64,000 bases of DNA from Thiogranum longum (GTDB lineage Bacteria > Pseudomonadota > Gammaproteobacteria > DSM-19610): contig NZ_SMFX01000001.1 of NCBI RefSeq assembly GCF_004339085.1, forward strand, positions 124,001-188,000, written 5' to 3'. A program made the position numbers and the translations under genes. This document shows positions 4,287-10,239 of this stretch, piece by piece (within the stretch, counting starts at the first letter, position 1; the number at the start of each line of letters is the position of its first letter). The notes below the pieces were generated by a model. It saw only the letters and a list, made by a program, of their open reading frames with translations. It was not told where the DNA came from and did not search any database.

Positions 4287-5000
4287 CTACAGGGAGTCTA
4301 TTTTCCTGTAGGTCCAACCCTGCTGCAGACGTTTGACGACATGGTCAATAGCGGTCTCACCGGTATGGACATCGTCAATCAGCGGTACATCGCTGCCAGC
4401 ACGCTTGAGATTGCGAATAGCGTTCATGCAGGCGATAAATTGCAGATTGCTGTATTTTGCACTCAGTTCCCGTACCCGTTGCTGGTATGGAGAACGGTCT
4501 GTACGCAGCAAATCAAGGCCGCCTGAGTTGGCGACAACTTCTACCTGCGCACCGTTGTCACGGTTTTCTTGCAAAAAACTTTCTGTAAAATCGAGTAGTT
4601 GGCCGAAATGTTCAGGGTCGGAATCATCAATATGCAGCACAATACGATGCGGGTCACTGGACGCTGACCGGGCCATGGCGTCATCATGCTCCGCATACCC
4701 GTAGGCCAGCAGACCAGCACCGGTACCGATTGCCAGGGCCATTACAGATGCAGCCACTCCGGCGCGCAGGTTTCGCCAGGAAAATTTTCTGCCGGGTAAT
4801 TCACGGGGTGGCGGTGTGGCCGAGCCATAACCGGTGCGCATCCAGTCTTTGGTACGACGCAGACTACAGATACGTTCGGACAAGGCCTTGTTATGTTCCA
4901 TGGCGGCCAACACGGCATTCTGCCTGTCGGCATCGAGCTCTCCATCTATATATGCGCTCAGGGTCGCATCATCCCAGGTATTATTCATCATCGTGCTCAC
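4287..5000 (-). CDS. Anti-sigma factor with periplasmic DsrE-like domain
   Basis: The 237-residue protein has three parts. Residues 10-55 (LSAYIDGELDADRQNAV) resemble the cytoplasmic anti-sigma domain, without a clear zinc-binding HxxxCxxC motif. Residues about 79-102 form one membrane helix. Residues about 117-237 form a DsrE-like alpha/beta domain that should lie in the periplasm. This last part resembles the divergently encoded secreted protein at 5834: both share the patterns F(I/T)AC(M/A)N(A/T) (Cys191 here) and GWTY near the end. The start is GTG 5000 or, equally plausible, ATG 4991 behind an AAGTGAG sequence. It begins 3 bases after the sigma gene stop, so the pair is one operon. The anti-sigma role is inferred from the N-terminal pattern and the location; the fused sensor-like domain is unusual. 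Confidence 0.8.
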   Translation of the reverse strand: MSTMMNNTWDDATLSAYIDGELDADRQNAVLAAMEHNKALSERICSLRRTKDWMRTGYGSATPPPRELPGRKFSWRNLRAGVAASVMALAIGTGAGLLAYGYAEHDDAMARSASSDPHRIVLHIDDSDPEHFGQLLDFTESFLQENRDNGAQVEVVANSGGLDLLRTDRSPYQQRVRELSAKYSNLQFIACMNAIRNLKRAGSDVPLIDDVHTGETAIDHVVKRLQQGWTYRKIDSL

Positions 5001-5003
5001 TTC

Positions 5004-5576
5004 TTACTTTACCCTTCTCAACGATGAGCCAGCCGGTTTGGCTGTAGCCTGCTCATCCGCTGTATCGAGCAGTTTAACGAGACCTTTACGGGCCCGGTGC
5101 AGGCGACTCATCACGGTGCCAACAGGGATTTCGAGTATTTCAGCGACGTTGCTGTAGGAAAAGCCTTCCAGGTCTACCAGTGCCAGAACCCGCCGCTGTT
5201 CCAGCGGCAAGGCGGCCACCGCCGTTCGTACGCGACTGACGATTTCAAGCCGGTCAACCATCAGTTCTGGCCCGGGTTTATCACAAGGCCGCTCGTCATC
5301 GAGATCTTCGTGCGGTCTGCGATTGCGCAGGTACTGTTTCCAGCAATTATTCAGGATACTGTACAACCAGGCATTCAGTCGTTCCCGGTCACGTAACTGG
5401 TGGACTTTCTGAAGTGCCAGCGAAAGGGTTTCCTGAACCAGATCATCAGCAAGCATGCTGTCACCGCACCATGCCAGCGCCACTCTGTACAGTCGTTCCC
5501 GTGAAGCCGCGATGCGTGGACGCATCGATACACAGCTACTTATGCAAGAAATCAGTCCCATAGTCTTTTGATGCAA
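5004..5576 (-). CDS. ECF-type RNA polymerase sigma factor
   Basis: A sigma-70 family protein with only regions 2 and 4, the ECF layout. Region 2 spans about residues 25-90 (LADDLVQETLSLALQ, LNAWLYSILNNCWKQYLR). Region 4 spans about 113-170 (LPLEQRRVLALVDLEGFSY, NVAEILEIPVGTVMSRLHRAR), including the helix-turn-helix for the -35 element. The open frame starts at TTG 5576, but ATG 5561 or the ATG before RPRIAASRERLYR (5525) is as likely; none has a clear ribosome binding site. It is cotranscribed with the anti-sigma factor immediately downstream and diverges from the DsrE-porin genes, which are its most likely targets (inference). Confidence 0.88.
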   Translation of the reverse strand: MHQKTMGLISCISSCVSMRPRIAASRERLYRVALAWCGDSMLADDLVQETLSLALQKVHQLRDRERLNAWLYSILNNCWKQYLRNRRPHEDLDDERPCDKPGPELMVDRLEIVSRVRTAVAALPLEQRRVLALVDLEGFSYSNVAEILEIPVGTVMSRLHRARKGLVKLLDTADEQATAKPAGSSLRRVK

Positions 5577-5833
5577 CAGCAGCCCATTTTATTTCATCAG
5601 AGTGGATAATTTGACGATTTCACCGGCCGGTTAACAGCCAGGCGCCTTGAATGCTGTCCTGCAGCTGACCTCGTGCCACGGCGCATTATATTTTAGCCAC
5701 AGTCTAGTACAAAGATGCGGCAAAGTGCGCAAGCGAACTGAATACAACAAAATTTCCTCAATACGGGAATAATTTACAGTCTGCCGGCCTCTACATTATG
5801 TGAGAAACGACAGAGAGGTGGAGGAATCTCAAT
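5577..5833. other. Divergent intergenic region between sigma and dsrE-like genes
   Basis: This 257-base spacer must contain the leftward sigma promoter and the rightward dsrE-like promoter. It is AT-rich towards its right half. The only promoter-like elements I can support are those given at 5765-5799; no clear leftward promoter is seen and no coding frame fits. Confidence 0.5.
5765..5799 (+). promoter_or_regulatory. Candidate promoter of dsrE-like/porin genes
   Basis: GGGAATAA (5765-5772) overlaps the left side of TTTACA (5773-5778), and CATTAT lies at 5794-5799, a 15-base spacer that is short for sigma-70. The GGGAAT element resembles the GGAA-centred -35 boxes recognised by many ECF sigma factors, which would fit control by the neighbouring sigma gene. 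A strong ribosome binding site (GTGGAGG, 5818-5824) follows before the ATG at 5834. The assignment is tentative. Confidence 0.4.
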
Positions 5834-6349
5834 ATGAAGCTAAATTTATGGCGCTCACTGAGCGCAATCAGTCTACTTGTTGCCATATTCGGTGTCGGTC
5901 CGGTTGTTGCCGAGCCACTCGATAAAGTACCGGAAGCGTCAGCGGGCCTTTTTCACCCCGCGCGCATAACGAAAGTACCGGAGGCGCCGGAAGACAAACC
6001 GTTTGCCGAGCACTTCATTGTTTTCCATATATCCAGTGGCGATGCTTTTGCACAGAAGCTGGTGCTCAACAATGCACAGAATCTGGCTAATTTCTACGGC
6101 CCGGACAAGGTGGTCATTGAGGTTGTTGCCTACGGCCCCGGTTTGCGTACCCTGTTTGAGGAAAACGCTTACTCGAAACGTATCCAGCGAATGGCAAAAG
6201 AGGGTATTACATTTACTGCTTGCGCCAACACGATGAAAGCCATGGGTAGAGACCAGCCGAGTCTGAACAAGGTTGCCAAGGTGGTGCCGGGCGGAGTTGT
6301 TCGCTTGACAGAACTGCAGGAAGCCGGCTGGACCTATATCAGGCCCTGA
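5834..6349 (+). CDS. Secreted DsrE-like protein
   Basis: The 171-residue protein has a signal peptide (MKLNLWRSLSAISLLVAIFGVGPVVA, probable cleavage near residue 26) and a DsrE/DsrF-like domain from about residue 58 (FIVFHISSGDAFAQKLVLNN, VIEVVAYGPGL). A single conserved Cys sits at residue 130 in FTACANTMKAMG. The domain resembles the C-terminal part of the adjacent anti-sigma factor, including the closing GWTY. DsrE-fold proteins commonly carry or sense sulfane sulfur on a Cys; whether this one does is unproven. A short repeat KVPEA occurs twice (31-35 and 48-52 region) in the linker after the signal peptide. It is followed by the porin gene after 75 bases and is probably cotranscribed with it. 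Confidence 0.85.
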   Translation: MKLNLWRSLSAISLLVAIFGVGPVVAEPLDKVPEASAGLFHPARITKVPEAPEDKPFAEHFIVFHISSGDAFAQKLVLNNAQNLANFYGPDKVVIEVVAYGPGLRTLFEENAYSKRIQRMAKEGITFTACANTMKAMGRDQPSLNKVAKVVPGGVVRLTELQEAGWTYIRP

Positions 6350-6424: not shown

Positions 6425-8017
6425 ATGCTGAAGACACTCCAACCTTTACACAAGGTCGTTCCTGCCGGACTCGCATTGATGCTGGCAATGGGAACAACAA
6501 CCACTCAGGCCGCCAACTGGTTCAAACTACGCGGAACAGAACCGGGCGGCATTGCCCACACCTTGCAGGTGTGGGGCTTCCTGCAACCGACGTATGCCTA
6601 CGATTTCAGTGACAGGATCGAGGGTGGTGTTGGTGGCTTCGGTGCGGCGGCAAATGGCACCGACCCGGTACCCGGCACGCTCCCGTCAGAGCGCACCTCG
6701 CAGCAAAGCTTCTATATGCGTCGAGCCCGTATCGGCATACGCGGAACCATGATTCCTATCAGTAATGATATCGATTATTTCATTCTTACTGAATGGGGAC
6801 AAAACGGAATAACACGAACGGATGGAGGTGCGAAGCTGCTGGATGCGTCGATCACGTTCAACCAGTTGTCACGCGGAATGGATGATGATGGTTTGCAAAA
6901 TCTGGGAGCCAGATTCCGTATGGGCCAGTTCCTGTTTTCACAAACCTCGCAAGCACTTTCCCAGTCAACACCTGGACGCCGCGTGCATATCTTTATGCCG
7001 GAGGCGACTTTCGCCCATGCCATCGGACGTTATGCCAGTGACAACGGTGTCGGAAACTGGCCTGAGAATGAAGTCTCAGCCAATGGTGCACGTGATGTCG
7101 GTATAGAGGTTTTTGACTGGGCTGAATTCAAGGATCCCATCTTTGGCGGGGGCCCTCTGGAATTTACCTATTCTCTTGGCCTGGGTAATGGCGATGCAAT
7201 CGGCGAACTGAACCGGGATGACAATTTCCGCAAGTATGGCTGGCTGTCGATTGCCAAGCTGTTTGATAACACGCGCGGTCCGCGACGCCACGATGCCATG
7301 CTGTATGGCTTTTACCAGAAAGGTGATATCCAGTTTAACAATGACCTGAACAACGATGGTCGCCCGGACGGAACACCTATACCTGCAGGCGGTAACCTGA
7401 ACCCGGGTAACCTTAACTCAGGGGTGACAGGTGGCGGTGTTGAGTTCGGCATCCAGAGTCCAGGCAACCGGGTACTCCTGAACGGCAATGAAAAGGATAT
7501 TGAGCAGAAATACTACGGTGTTGGTTTGGAATATTTCGACAAACCCTTCGCCGGACTGGGCCAGATCCGCTTCGAAACCGAGTGGCAGAAACAGGAGGGG
7601 CTGACTTTCGATGGTGCGCAATCACCTTCCGTTGCAGTAAACAATGCGGTTGGTGGCTTCCAGAGCATCCTGTATGACGTCGATGGTAAAAATACGGGTT
7701 GGTTCGTTGACATGGGTTATGACATCCACCAGCACCTGGGTCTCAAGAAACGCACCACACTCAATGTTCGTTATGACGAGTTTGACCGTAACAAGGGTAA
7801 TGACGTCCGTGAAGTCAACTTCAAGACCTGGACAGCGACTGCCGAATATTTCTTCCACAAGAAGGCACGTGCCACACTGACTTACCAGTGGCGTGATTTC
7901 TCGGCAGACAATCGTACTGGTGGTTTCAAGACCAATGGTAATGCCGTTCTGGAACAGATTGACCAGCGGATTGGCTTGCAGGTGACCTTCATCTACAAGA
8001 ATGTTCTGTTACGCTGA
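6425..8017 (+). CDS. Outer-membrane porin (OprO/OprP-like)
   Basis: The 530-residue protein has a signal peptide ending in TTTTQA (cleavage near residue 29) and then alternating, aromatic-rich beta strands with glycine/asparagine-rich loops, for example WGFLQPTYAYDFSD, SFYMRRARIGIRGTM and RTTLNVRYDEFDR. The pattern 'MRRARIGIRG' and the overall length resemble porins of the phosphate-selective O/P group. The gene has a good ribosome binding site (GGAGGGG before ATG 6425) and a strong terminator after it. Substrate cannot be predicted. Location next to the DsrE-like gene and sigma factor suggests that it belongs to the same response. Confidence 0.82.
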   Translation: MLKTLQPLHKVVPAGLALMLAMGTTTTQAANWFKLRGTEPGGIAHTLQVWGFLQPTYAYDFSDRIEGGVGGFGAAANGTDPVPGTLPSERTSQQSFYMRRARIGIRGTMIPISNDIDYFILTEWGQNGITRTDGGAKLLDASITFNQLSRGMDDDGLQNLGARFRMGQFLFSQTSQALSQSTPGRRVHIFMPEATFAHAIGRYASDNGVGNWPENEVSANGARDVGIEVFDWAEFKDPIFGGGPLEFTYSLGLGNGDAIGELNRDDNFRKYGWLSIAKLFDNTRGPRRHDAMLYGFYQKGDIQFNNDLNNDGRPDGTPIPAGGNLNPGNLNSGVTGGGVEFGIQSPGNRVLLNGNEKDIEQKYYGVGLEYFDKPFAGLGQIRFETEWQKQEGLTFDGAQSPSVAVNNAVGGFQSILYDVDGKNTGWFVDMGYDIHQHLGLKKRTTLNVRYDEFDRNKGNDVREVNFKTWTATAEYFFHKKARATLTYQWRDFSADNRTGGFKTNGNAVLEQIDQRIGLQVTFIYKNVLLR

Positions 8018-9412: not shown

Positions 9413-9754
9413 ATGACATCCGATTTGAAAACAGGATTAACAGCGAGCGCTGCAGCACGCACACTGTTGGCTGGTTCATTGATACTGGCCGGAAATTCAC
9501 TACAGGCGGCTGACAACCCGTTTGTATCTACCGATTTGTCGGCTGGCTACAGGCTGGCAGACGCCGATGCGGGGGACAAGGCCGGGGAGAGTAAAGCGAT
9601 GAAAGGCGAAGGCAAATGTGGCGGCAAGGCTGCGAGTGAGGCCGTTTGTGGTATTTACCAGATCGGTAGTTCACACAAGGATCCCGCCAAGGTAAAAGAT
9701 GGCAAATGCGGGGGACACAAGGTTGTCGAGGCGTTGTGCGGTGGAGCCAGATAG
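9413..9754 (+). CDS. HvfA/bufferin-like Cys-motif peptide precursor
   Basis: The 113-residue protein has a signal-like N-terminus (hydrophobic 17-32, ending LQAAD), then NPFVSTDLSAGYRLADAD, a stretch typical of HvfA/BufA-type precursors, and four Cys motifs: EGKCGG (66-71), EAVCG (76-80), DGKCGG (96-101) and EALCG (106-110). The two halves form a 30-residue repeat of pattern GKCGG-x5-EAxCG. In HvfA-type peptides, Cys in EGKCG motifs are post-translationally modified and bind copper. The enzymes expected for this (DUF692 HvfB and its partner HvfC) are not in this window. A ribosome binding site AAGGA precedes ATG 9413. The family call rests on motif pattern; modification is uncertain here. Confidence 0.72.
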   Translation: MTSDLKTGLTASAAARTLLAGSLILAGNSLQAADNPFVSTDLSAGYRLADADAGDKAGESKAMKGEGKCGGKAASEAVCGIYQIGSSHKDPAKVKDGKCGGHKVVEALCGGAR

Positions 9755-9786
9755 CGGATCAGAAAAATCACTTAAAGGAGCAGGAA

Positions 9787-10239
9787 ATGAAGCGCACAGT
9801 TTTTACAATCGTACTGACACTTTGTTTGGTTGCAGGTGCCACAGCCAGTGAAGGACTCATCCAGGTGAAGAGCCCCTATTCGGTCGAGCAGACCCTGGAC
9901 CGCTTTGAGCAGGCTGCAAGAGCCAAGGGTATGACGATCTTCACCCGTATCGACCATGCGGCGGGCGCTGCCAGTGTGGACAAGGATCTGCGGCCGACAG
10001 CGCTGTTGATATTTGGAAACCCCAAGGTGGGAACCTTGCTCATGCAGAGCAATCAGGCGGTTGCCATCGATTTGCCAATGAAAGCGCTGGCATGGAAAGA
10101 TGAAAGCGGACAGGTGTGGCTTGCCTATAACGACCCGGAGTATCTGGTAAAGCGCCACGTCATCAAAGACCGCGATGCTGTCGTGCAGAAAATCAACAAG
10201 GCACTACACGCTTTTTGCAAAGCGGCCACAAAGCCCTGA
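9787..10239 (+). CDS. DUF302 domain-containing exported protein
   Basis: The 150-residue protein begins with a signal peptide (MKRTVFTIVLTLCLVAGATA) and continues with a DUF302 domain. Its typical features are the N-terminal strand-helix (SPYSVEQTLDRFEQAARAKGMTIFTRIDHAAGA), LLIFGNPKVGTLLMQ and IDLPMKALAWKDESGQVWLAYNDPEYL. The function of DUF302 is unknown; members are often exported and sit beside metal or sulfur genes. A strong ribosome binding site (AAAGGAG, 9774-9780) precedes the ATG. It lies 32 bases after the HvfA-like gene, consistent with one transcript. Confidence 0.88.
   Translation: MKRTVFTIVLTLCLVAGATASEGLIQVKSPYSVEQTLDRFEQAARAKGMTIFTRIDHAAGAASVDKDLRPTALLIFGNPKVGTLLMQSNQAVAIDLPMKALAWKDESGQVWLAYNDPEYLVKRHVIKDRDAVVQKINKALHAFCKAATKP

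Follow-up and report, generated by a model that had tools for sequence, protein, structure and literature searches.

The window analysed here, a stretch of 64,000 nucleotides from Thiogranum longum, contains two divergently transcribed gene pairs that together make up a putative signalling unit. On one side, a gene for an ECF sigma factor is followed by a gene for an anti-sigma factor whose C-terminal part is a DsrE domain; on the other side, a gene for a secreted DsrE protein is followed by a porin gene (Table 1). A sequence-only reading of this DNA had described the anti-sigma protein as an N-terminal anti-sigma-like domain, one membrane helix and a C-terminal DsrE-like domain. This layout was right, and the genes had been placed at the correct coordinates and in the correct frames.

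Table 1. Genes and predicted promoters of the signalling unit in the window.
Feature	Position	Strand	Details
Anti-sigma factor	4287..5000	-	237 aa; anti-sigma-like domain ~1-60, helix ~80-100, DsrE ~117-237, Cys191
ECF sigma-70 factor, regions 2 and 4	5004..5576	-	Pfam and TIGR matches
Sigma gene's own promoter (predicted)	5569..5595	-	GAAATAAAA-N-GCATCA; one match in the 2.9 Mb genome
DsrE-porin promoter (predicted)	5765..5794	+	GGGAATAATTTACAGTCTGCCGGCCTCTAC (GGGAATA-N-CTCTAC); one match in the genome
Secreted soluble DsrE, 171 residues	5834..6349	+	Hydrophobic signal-like N-terminus; one Cys (Cys130)
Outer-membrane porin, phosphate-selective porin O/P type	6425..8017	+	Directly downstream of DsrE

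The sigma factor scores above the curated cut-offs of PF04542 (49.6 bits) and PF08281 (60.8 bits), as well as that of TIGR02937 (83.2 versus a cut-off of 42.9). Its open reading frame starts with a TTG codon at 5576, and the ATG at 5561 is the likelier start. Outside the sigma factors that accompany similar fusions, its nearest relatives are about 40% identical. The closest named matches of the whole anti-sigma factor come from Thiohalobacter MAGs (81% and 70% identity). Pfam matches of its N-terminus to zf-HC2 and RseA_N remain below the cut-offs. The HxxxCxxC (ZAS) motif was looked for in the window protein and is missing, which rules out a zinc-binding ZAS domain; Cys45 is kept in just 59 of the 88 fusion proteins that we read in the survey described below. 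A membrane helix is present in all 88, and in the window protein it is preceded by the basic stretch GRKFSWRNLR, so that the C-terminus should be periplasmic. The place of its gene, its N-terminus and its single helix make the window protein a predicted membrane anti-sigma factor, with putative sigma binding.

The outer domain of the anti-sigma factor had been said to resemble the secreted protein encoded opposite, and sequence comparison confirms this likeness as real and beyond chance. The two DsrE regions align in BLASTP with 25% identity over 115 aa (E=6e-8), have corresponding motifs (FIACMNA in the fused domain, FTACANT in the soluble one) and both contain GWTY. When compared with MTH1491 (1l1s), a solved protein of the DsrE fold, the soluble DsrE matched at 1.9e-17, the window anti-sigma factor at 3.4e-10 and a profile of 46 anti-sigma members at 3.1e-22, with the conserved Cys aligned to a Cys of MTH1491. 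The soluble protein also passes the Pfam DsrE model (PF02635; 30.2 versus 22.7 bits). The same model does not match the fused domain of the window and matches 15 of the 46 fusion proteins scanned (E<=0.01). Structure prediction of both proteins, proposed in the sequence-only reading as a check, answered for one of them: the model of the soluble DsrE matches MTH1491 (1l1s) with a TM score of 0.96 on the target, while the anti-sigma model, made from a four-sequence alignment, had a pLDDT of 49, gave no significant fold match and was unusable. The DsrE fold of the fused domain consequently rests on sequence profiles, not on structure. Membership of both domains in the DsrE fold family, as opposed to unrelated folds, is supported by these profiles and, for the soluble protein, by the structural model as well.

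The two domains have in common a highly conserved cysteine. Cys191, the sole periplasmic Cys of the window anti-sigma factor, is invariant in 88/88 fusion proteins, as is Cys130 in 57/57 soluble DsrE proteins. Exactly one Cys is found in 84 of the 88 periplasmic parts and in every one of the 57 soluble DsrE cores. A single Cys per periplasmic part argues for an S-adduct over an internal disulfide, and a two-cysteine redox switch inside the sensor is ruled out by the lone Cys in those 84 proteins. In a tree computed from few alignment columns, with a bootstrap that had not fully settled, the fused and soluble domains lie on opposite sides of one branch (support 99/97), and the soluble proteins form two subfamilies, one divergent-type and one downstream-type, both of which accompany the fusion. 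The deep branch rules out a recent duplication of one domain from the other; the term paralogue, used in the sequence-only reading, holds in an ancient sense only. The fusion itself appears to be old, and it probably had a single origin.

Our survey searched 369 Gammaproteobacteria, retrieved 80 regions and read 88 fusion genes. Full-length fusions were present in 66 of the 369 genomes, which are related by descent, so that genome counts are not independent; in a phylum-wide sample of 299 genomes, full fusions were found only inside Gammaproteobacteria. The sigma gene lies directly upstream of the fusion gene in 87/88 cases, the exception being at a contig edge. A soluble DsrE gene is located at most 3.5 kb from the fusion gene in 53/88 cases and was not detected beside it in 35/88. 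Adjoining soluble DsrE genes are either divergent, as in the window (40), or downstream in the same direction (17), with both in a few loci. With about six DsrE matches among about 2,700 genes, we estimate that such an adjacency would arise by chance in about 1 of 100 cases. The divergent DsrE gene is directly followed by a related porin gene in 29 of 38 loci. Loci L011 to L013 have the order trmE, anti-sigma, sigma and divergent DsrE, then the porin where the contig reaches (the contig of L011 ends within the DsrE gene). Conservation in these loci and in tens of further genomes bears out the suspected link between the genes. What had been proposed as a three-part unit of sigma factor, membrane sensor and soluble partner is supported as a conserved signalling unit, but one that usually comprises four genes, with the porin as the fourth.

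Several variations of this arrangement were observed. Two more sigma/fusion pairs are encoded in the same genome (L014, 5626-9874; L015, 5837-8861), bringing the paralogous sigma factors to three; neither pair has a soluble DsrE gene beside it. One of them lies upstream of a SulP sulfate-permease gene and the other faces groEL, which also neighbours a sigma/fusion pair in five other loci. As candidate partners, groEL, glnE-like and housekeeping neighbours were set aside, as they look like clade synteny only. In loci L076 (6081-10536) and L086 (6060-10449), two sigma/anti-sigma-DsrE pairs are arranged head to tail in tandem, with a DsrE gene of the downstream type at one end and one of the divergent type at the other. 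Two Thiohalobacter MAGs (L011, 554-1225; L012, 2039-2647) have a gene for a secreted Sel1-repeat protein between the sigma and the divergent DsrE genes; neither the window nor L013 has this gene, and it was dropped as an extra partner. Further along the window, positions 9413-9754 encode a small secreted protein that contains EGKCGG/DGKCGG repeats, matches no Pfam family and may resemble metal-binding precursors of the bufferin/HvfA type.

A motif of the form GGAATAA-N14/15-CGTCTA, a predicted promoter, precedes both the sigma and the divergent DsrE genes. With a working pattern, 45 of 87 loci show it in front of the sigma gene, and none matches the reversed pattern. It faces the divergent DsrE gene in 22 of 38 loci, compared with a mean of 0.09 for shuffled sequences and 0 for the reversed motif. 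The two predicted promoters of the window (Table 1) are a clade-specific variant of this motif with equivalents in related loci, an element similar to that of the sigma gene being found in L011, L012, L013, L050 and L051. The GGAA-type -35 and GTC-type -10 elements in front of the sigma gene point to autoregulation of the predicted kind.

With this motif, for which nothing but sigma and DsrE genes had been used, we then scanned the single-contig 2.9 Mb genome of the window (G000). Of four matches in the whole genome, two fall in the soxXYZAB operon, one before soxX and the other between soxA and soxB. The third is the promoter of the third sigma factor (L015). The remaining site (L134, position 4760, minus strand) fronts no clearly recognised gene and is adjoined by a 73-aa ORF. 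The sox regions of fusion genomes gave 19 matches, 18 of them distinct and two being the sigma genes' own promoters. No match to the reversed motif was found in these regions, and in genomes lacking the fusion 20 sox regions had no match to the motif itself. It stands directly before soxB in eight genomes (G000, G080, G082, G122, G126, G151, G237 and G250), directly before soxX in two (G000 and G334) and before genes for TsuA-like sulfur transporters in three (G082, G237 and G309). In its strict form, the motif occurs at sox or TsuA-like genes in 10 of 41 fusion genomes and in none of 20 controls (hypergeometric probability of about 0.01, worked out by hand), and it is absent at the sox genes of most of the 41. 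Genome-wide, the strict motif has 23 matches in 45 fusion genomes versus 3 in 45 soxB-bearing genomes without the fusion; matches to the reversed strict pattern are few and similar in the two groups.

Gene content shows the same association. soxB is present in 65 of the 66 fusion genomes versus 87 of the 303 others (Fisher 1.7e-28, a value inflated by relatedness). In G156, G267 and G167, the sigma/fusion pair is found 2 to 2.5 kb from soxB, and G167 has a single cluster of sox genes, a further DsrE gene that follows soxB, the sigma/anti-sigma pair, a divergent DsrE gene, a porin gene and a TsuA-like gene. The sulfur signal that had been suggested from the window alone thus gains support from a link to sox, through soxB co-occurrence and the motif at sox genes, that the sequence-only reading had not seen. 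Within the window genome, the sox sites are closer in sequence to the promoter of the third pair (L015) than to either promoter in Table 1, so that the window pair may act on itself and on the DsrE-porin genes only. DUF302 proteins recur near the unit (window, 9706-10239; L146, 885-1352), and in G055, the only fusion genome that lacks soxB, a site matching the strict motif is directed at a DUF302 gene, which makes DUF302 a possible member of the regulon.

The observed architecture, homology and neighbourhood, together with the invariant Cys, the shared motif, the co-occurrence with sox and the motif before sox genes, lead us to propose that the unit controls sulfur oxidation as an ECF sigma/anti-sigma switch, which would sense periplasmic reduced sulfur, either sulfane sulfur or thiosulfate, via Cys191 of the DsrE domain. 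We assign this reading a probability of about 75%. Without a signal, the anti-sigma factor would hold the sigma factor inactive. We infer that sulfur is the ligand and that the chemistry takes place on the cysteine: the periplasmic DsrE domain would read reduced sulfur in the form of an adduct, a persulfide or an S-thiosulfonate, on Cys191. According to the cited part of PMC4175335, archaeal DsrE3A reacts with tetrathionate to form a Cys-S-thiosulfonate and hands thiosulfate to TusA, which on that account places Cys-adduct chemistry within the DsrE family. The adduct state, on the presumed direction of the switch, would free the sigma factor, either through a change in conformation or through proteolysis. 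If the putative assignment of sigma factor to promoter is right, free sigma factor would read promoters of the GGAATAA-N14/15-CGTCTA type in front of its own operon and of the divergent genes for the secreted DsrE and the porin and, family-wide, also in front of sox genes and of genes for TsuA/SoxT-like sulfur transporters. The secreted DsrE, which has the same fold and would be co-induced with the porin, would be a periplasmic sulfur carrier that feeds the sensor or buffers its ligand.

The part of the soluble protein in this scheme can be seen in several ways: it may deliver sulfur to the sensor, act as a buffer for the ligand of the sensor or have a role in sulfur oxidation alone. We give nearly even odds to a version in which the switch is the same and the secreted DsrE is an output only, a periplasmic sulfur carrier or binding protein that serves uptake or sulfur oxidation together with the porin and makes no contact with the sensor. 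The likeness of the fused and soluble domains would then arise from both binding the same ligand. The soluble gene stands behind the same promoter type in an apparent operon with the porin, another DsrE gene follows soxB in the G167 sox cluster, 35 of the 88 fusion genes have no detected soluble neighbour and the split between the domains is ancient, all of which suits an output. Set against this, soluble genes stay next to the fusion in two layouts (divergent, type A; downstream, type B) and come from two subfamilies, a hint that the sensor needs a soluble partner close by. The earlier suggestion that the soluble protein competes with the sensor, or passes Cys-bound sulfur to it, is compatible with the one invariant Cys in each. 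A full periplasmic relay, in which the secreted DsrE would take sulfane sulfur or thiosulfate from Sox or the medium and hand it from Cys to Cys to the anti-sigma domain, strikes us as rather doubtful. If true, sulfur itself would be the message passed along like domains, as phosphate is in a phosphorelay.

Thiol-reactive stress (arsenite, copper, mercury or oxidants) is an improbable signal for the Cys in place of a sulfur substrate; the link to sox would then be indirect. A lone exposed Cys could bind metals, and in Thioalkalivibrio exposed to arsenite DsrE/F-like genes change and sox genes rise in one of two strains (PMC6620896). Yet soxB in 65 of 66 fusion genomes and the motif at sox and sulfur-transporter genes are what a regulator responding to a sulfur substrate predicts, and no gene for metal or oxidant resistance is among the most recurrent neighbours. 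An RseA-like envelope-stress switch with the DsrE domain as a structural leftover would fit the weak resemblance of the N-terminus to RseA_N and the outer-membrane protein in the unit, but is very improbable given a Cys invariant in 88/88 proteins, a DsrE domain that keeps its conserved positions and a promoter motif that recurs at sulfur genes.

ECF control of sulfur oxidation is already known; a DsrE sensor with a soluble partner appears to be undescribed. The literature that we searched, the main ECF classification paper lying outside its scope, contained no anti-sigma factor with a DsrE sensor and a secreted DsrE partner, and no role for secreted DsrE proteins, which the unit would provide. 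Sensing of external sulfur by the regulators of sulfur oxidizers has been called poorly understood (PMC11582611), and the regulators considered in PMC11582611 and PMC10451225 are cytoplasmic repressors that need sulfur import. A sulfur-responsive sigma/anti-sigma switch of the kind proposed here would place a direct sensor in the periplasm, linked to the sox pathway by promoter motif and gene co-occurrence. The unit occurs in many families of sulfur-oxidizing Gammaproteobacteria, and its one Cys and one promoter motif make precise and cheap tests possible.

Known systems share individual features with this unit. RpoE4/RpoE1 of Sinorhizobium meliloti and SigE of Starkeya novella, ECF26-type factors of Alphaproteobacteria, likewise combine an ECF sigma factor with an anti-sigma factor, and ECF26 answers sulfite-generating compounds and drives sulfite-oxidizing enzymes (PMC3511301, PMC6527743). 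The ECF26 promoter as given in the cited part of PMC6527743 (-35 GGAAT, -10 CGTC) agrees with our family consensus GGAATAA-N-CGTCTa. In contrast to our unit, ECF26 targets sulfite dehydrogenases. Its anti-sigma factors are described as COG5662, and the cited parts of these papers mention neither a DsrE domain nor a soluble partner (PMC3511301, PMC6527743). Sulfite dehydrogenase genes were not seen among the recurrent neighbours of the unit, and the putative targets found with its motif are sox and TsuA-like genes. The ECF sigma-2/anti-sigma-2 pair of Arcobacter butzleri resembles the unit in that it has been shown experimentally to control a sox operon, but it belongs to Campylobacterota, has nitrate reductase and other targets and has no reported DsrE sensor (PMC3445524).

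The ArsR-type regulators SoxR/sHdrR of Hyphomicrobium denitrificans would be similar to the proposed unit in controlling sox in response to sulfane sulfur through Cys chemistry (PMC10451225), and they are fed by YeeE-like SoxT importers (PMC11582611). They differ in being cytoplasmic repressors with two Cys, whereas the unit pairs a sigma factor with a putative sensor in the membrane that has a single Cys in its periplasmic part. With the DsrE/DsrF family (DsrEFH, TusBCD, MTH1491) the unit shares the fold and an active-site-like Cys. The characterized sulfur-transfer proteins DsrEFH and TusBCD are cytoplasmic, whereas the DsrE of the unit is secreted and also forms the outer domain of an anti-sigma factor; no DsrF or DsrH genes were found beside the window DsrE gene, which together with the signal-like N-terminus argues against a cytoplasmic DsrE-F-H heterohexamer. 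Cell-surface signalling of the FecIRA kind was ruled out, the outer-membrane gene of the unit encoding a porin and not a TonB-dependent receptor. Anti-sigma factors of the RseA, MucA and FecR types have the same plan of a cytoplasmic sigma-binding part, one helix and a periplasmic sensor; the unit departs from them in using a DsrE domain as its sensor, and in being accompanied by a secreted DsrE and a porin in place of RseB or a TonB-dependent receptor.
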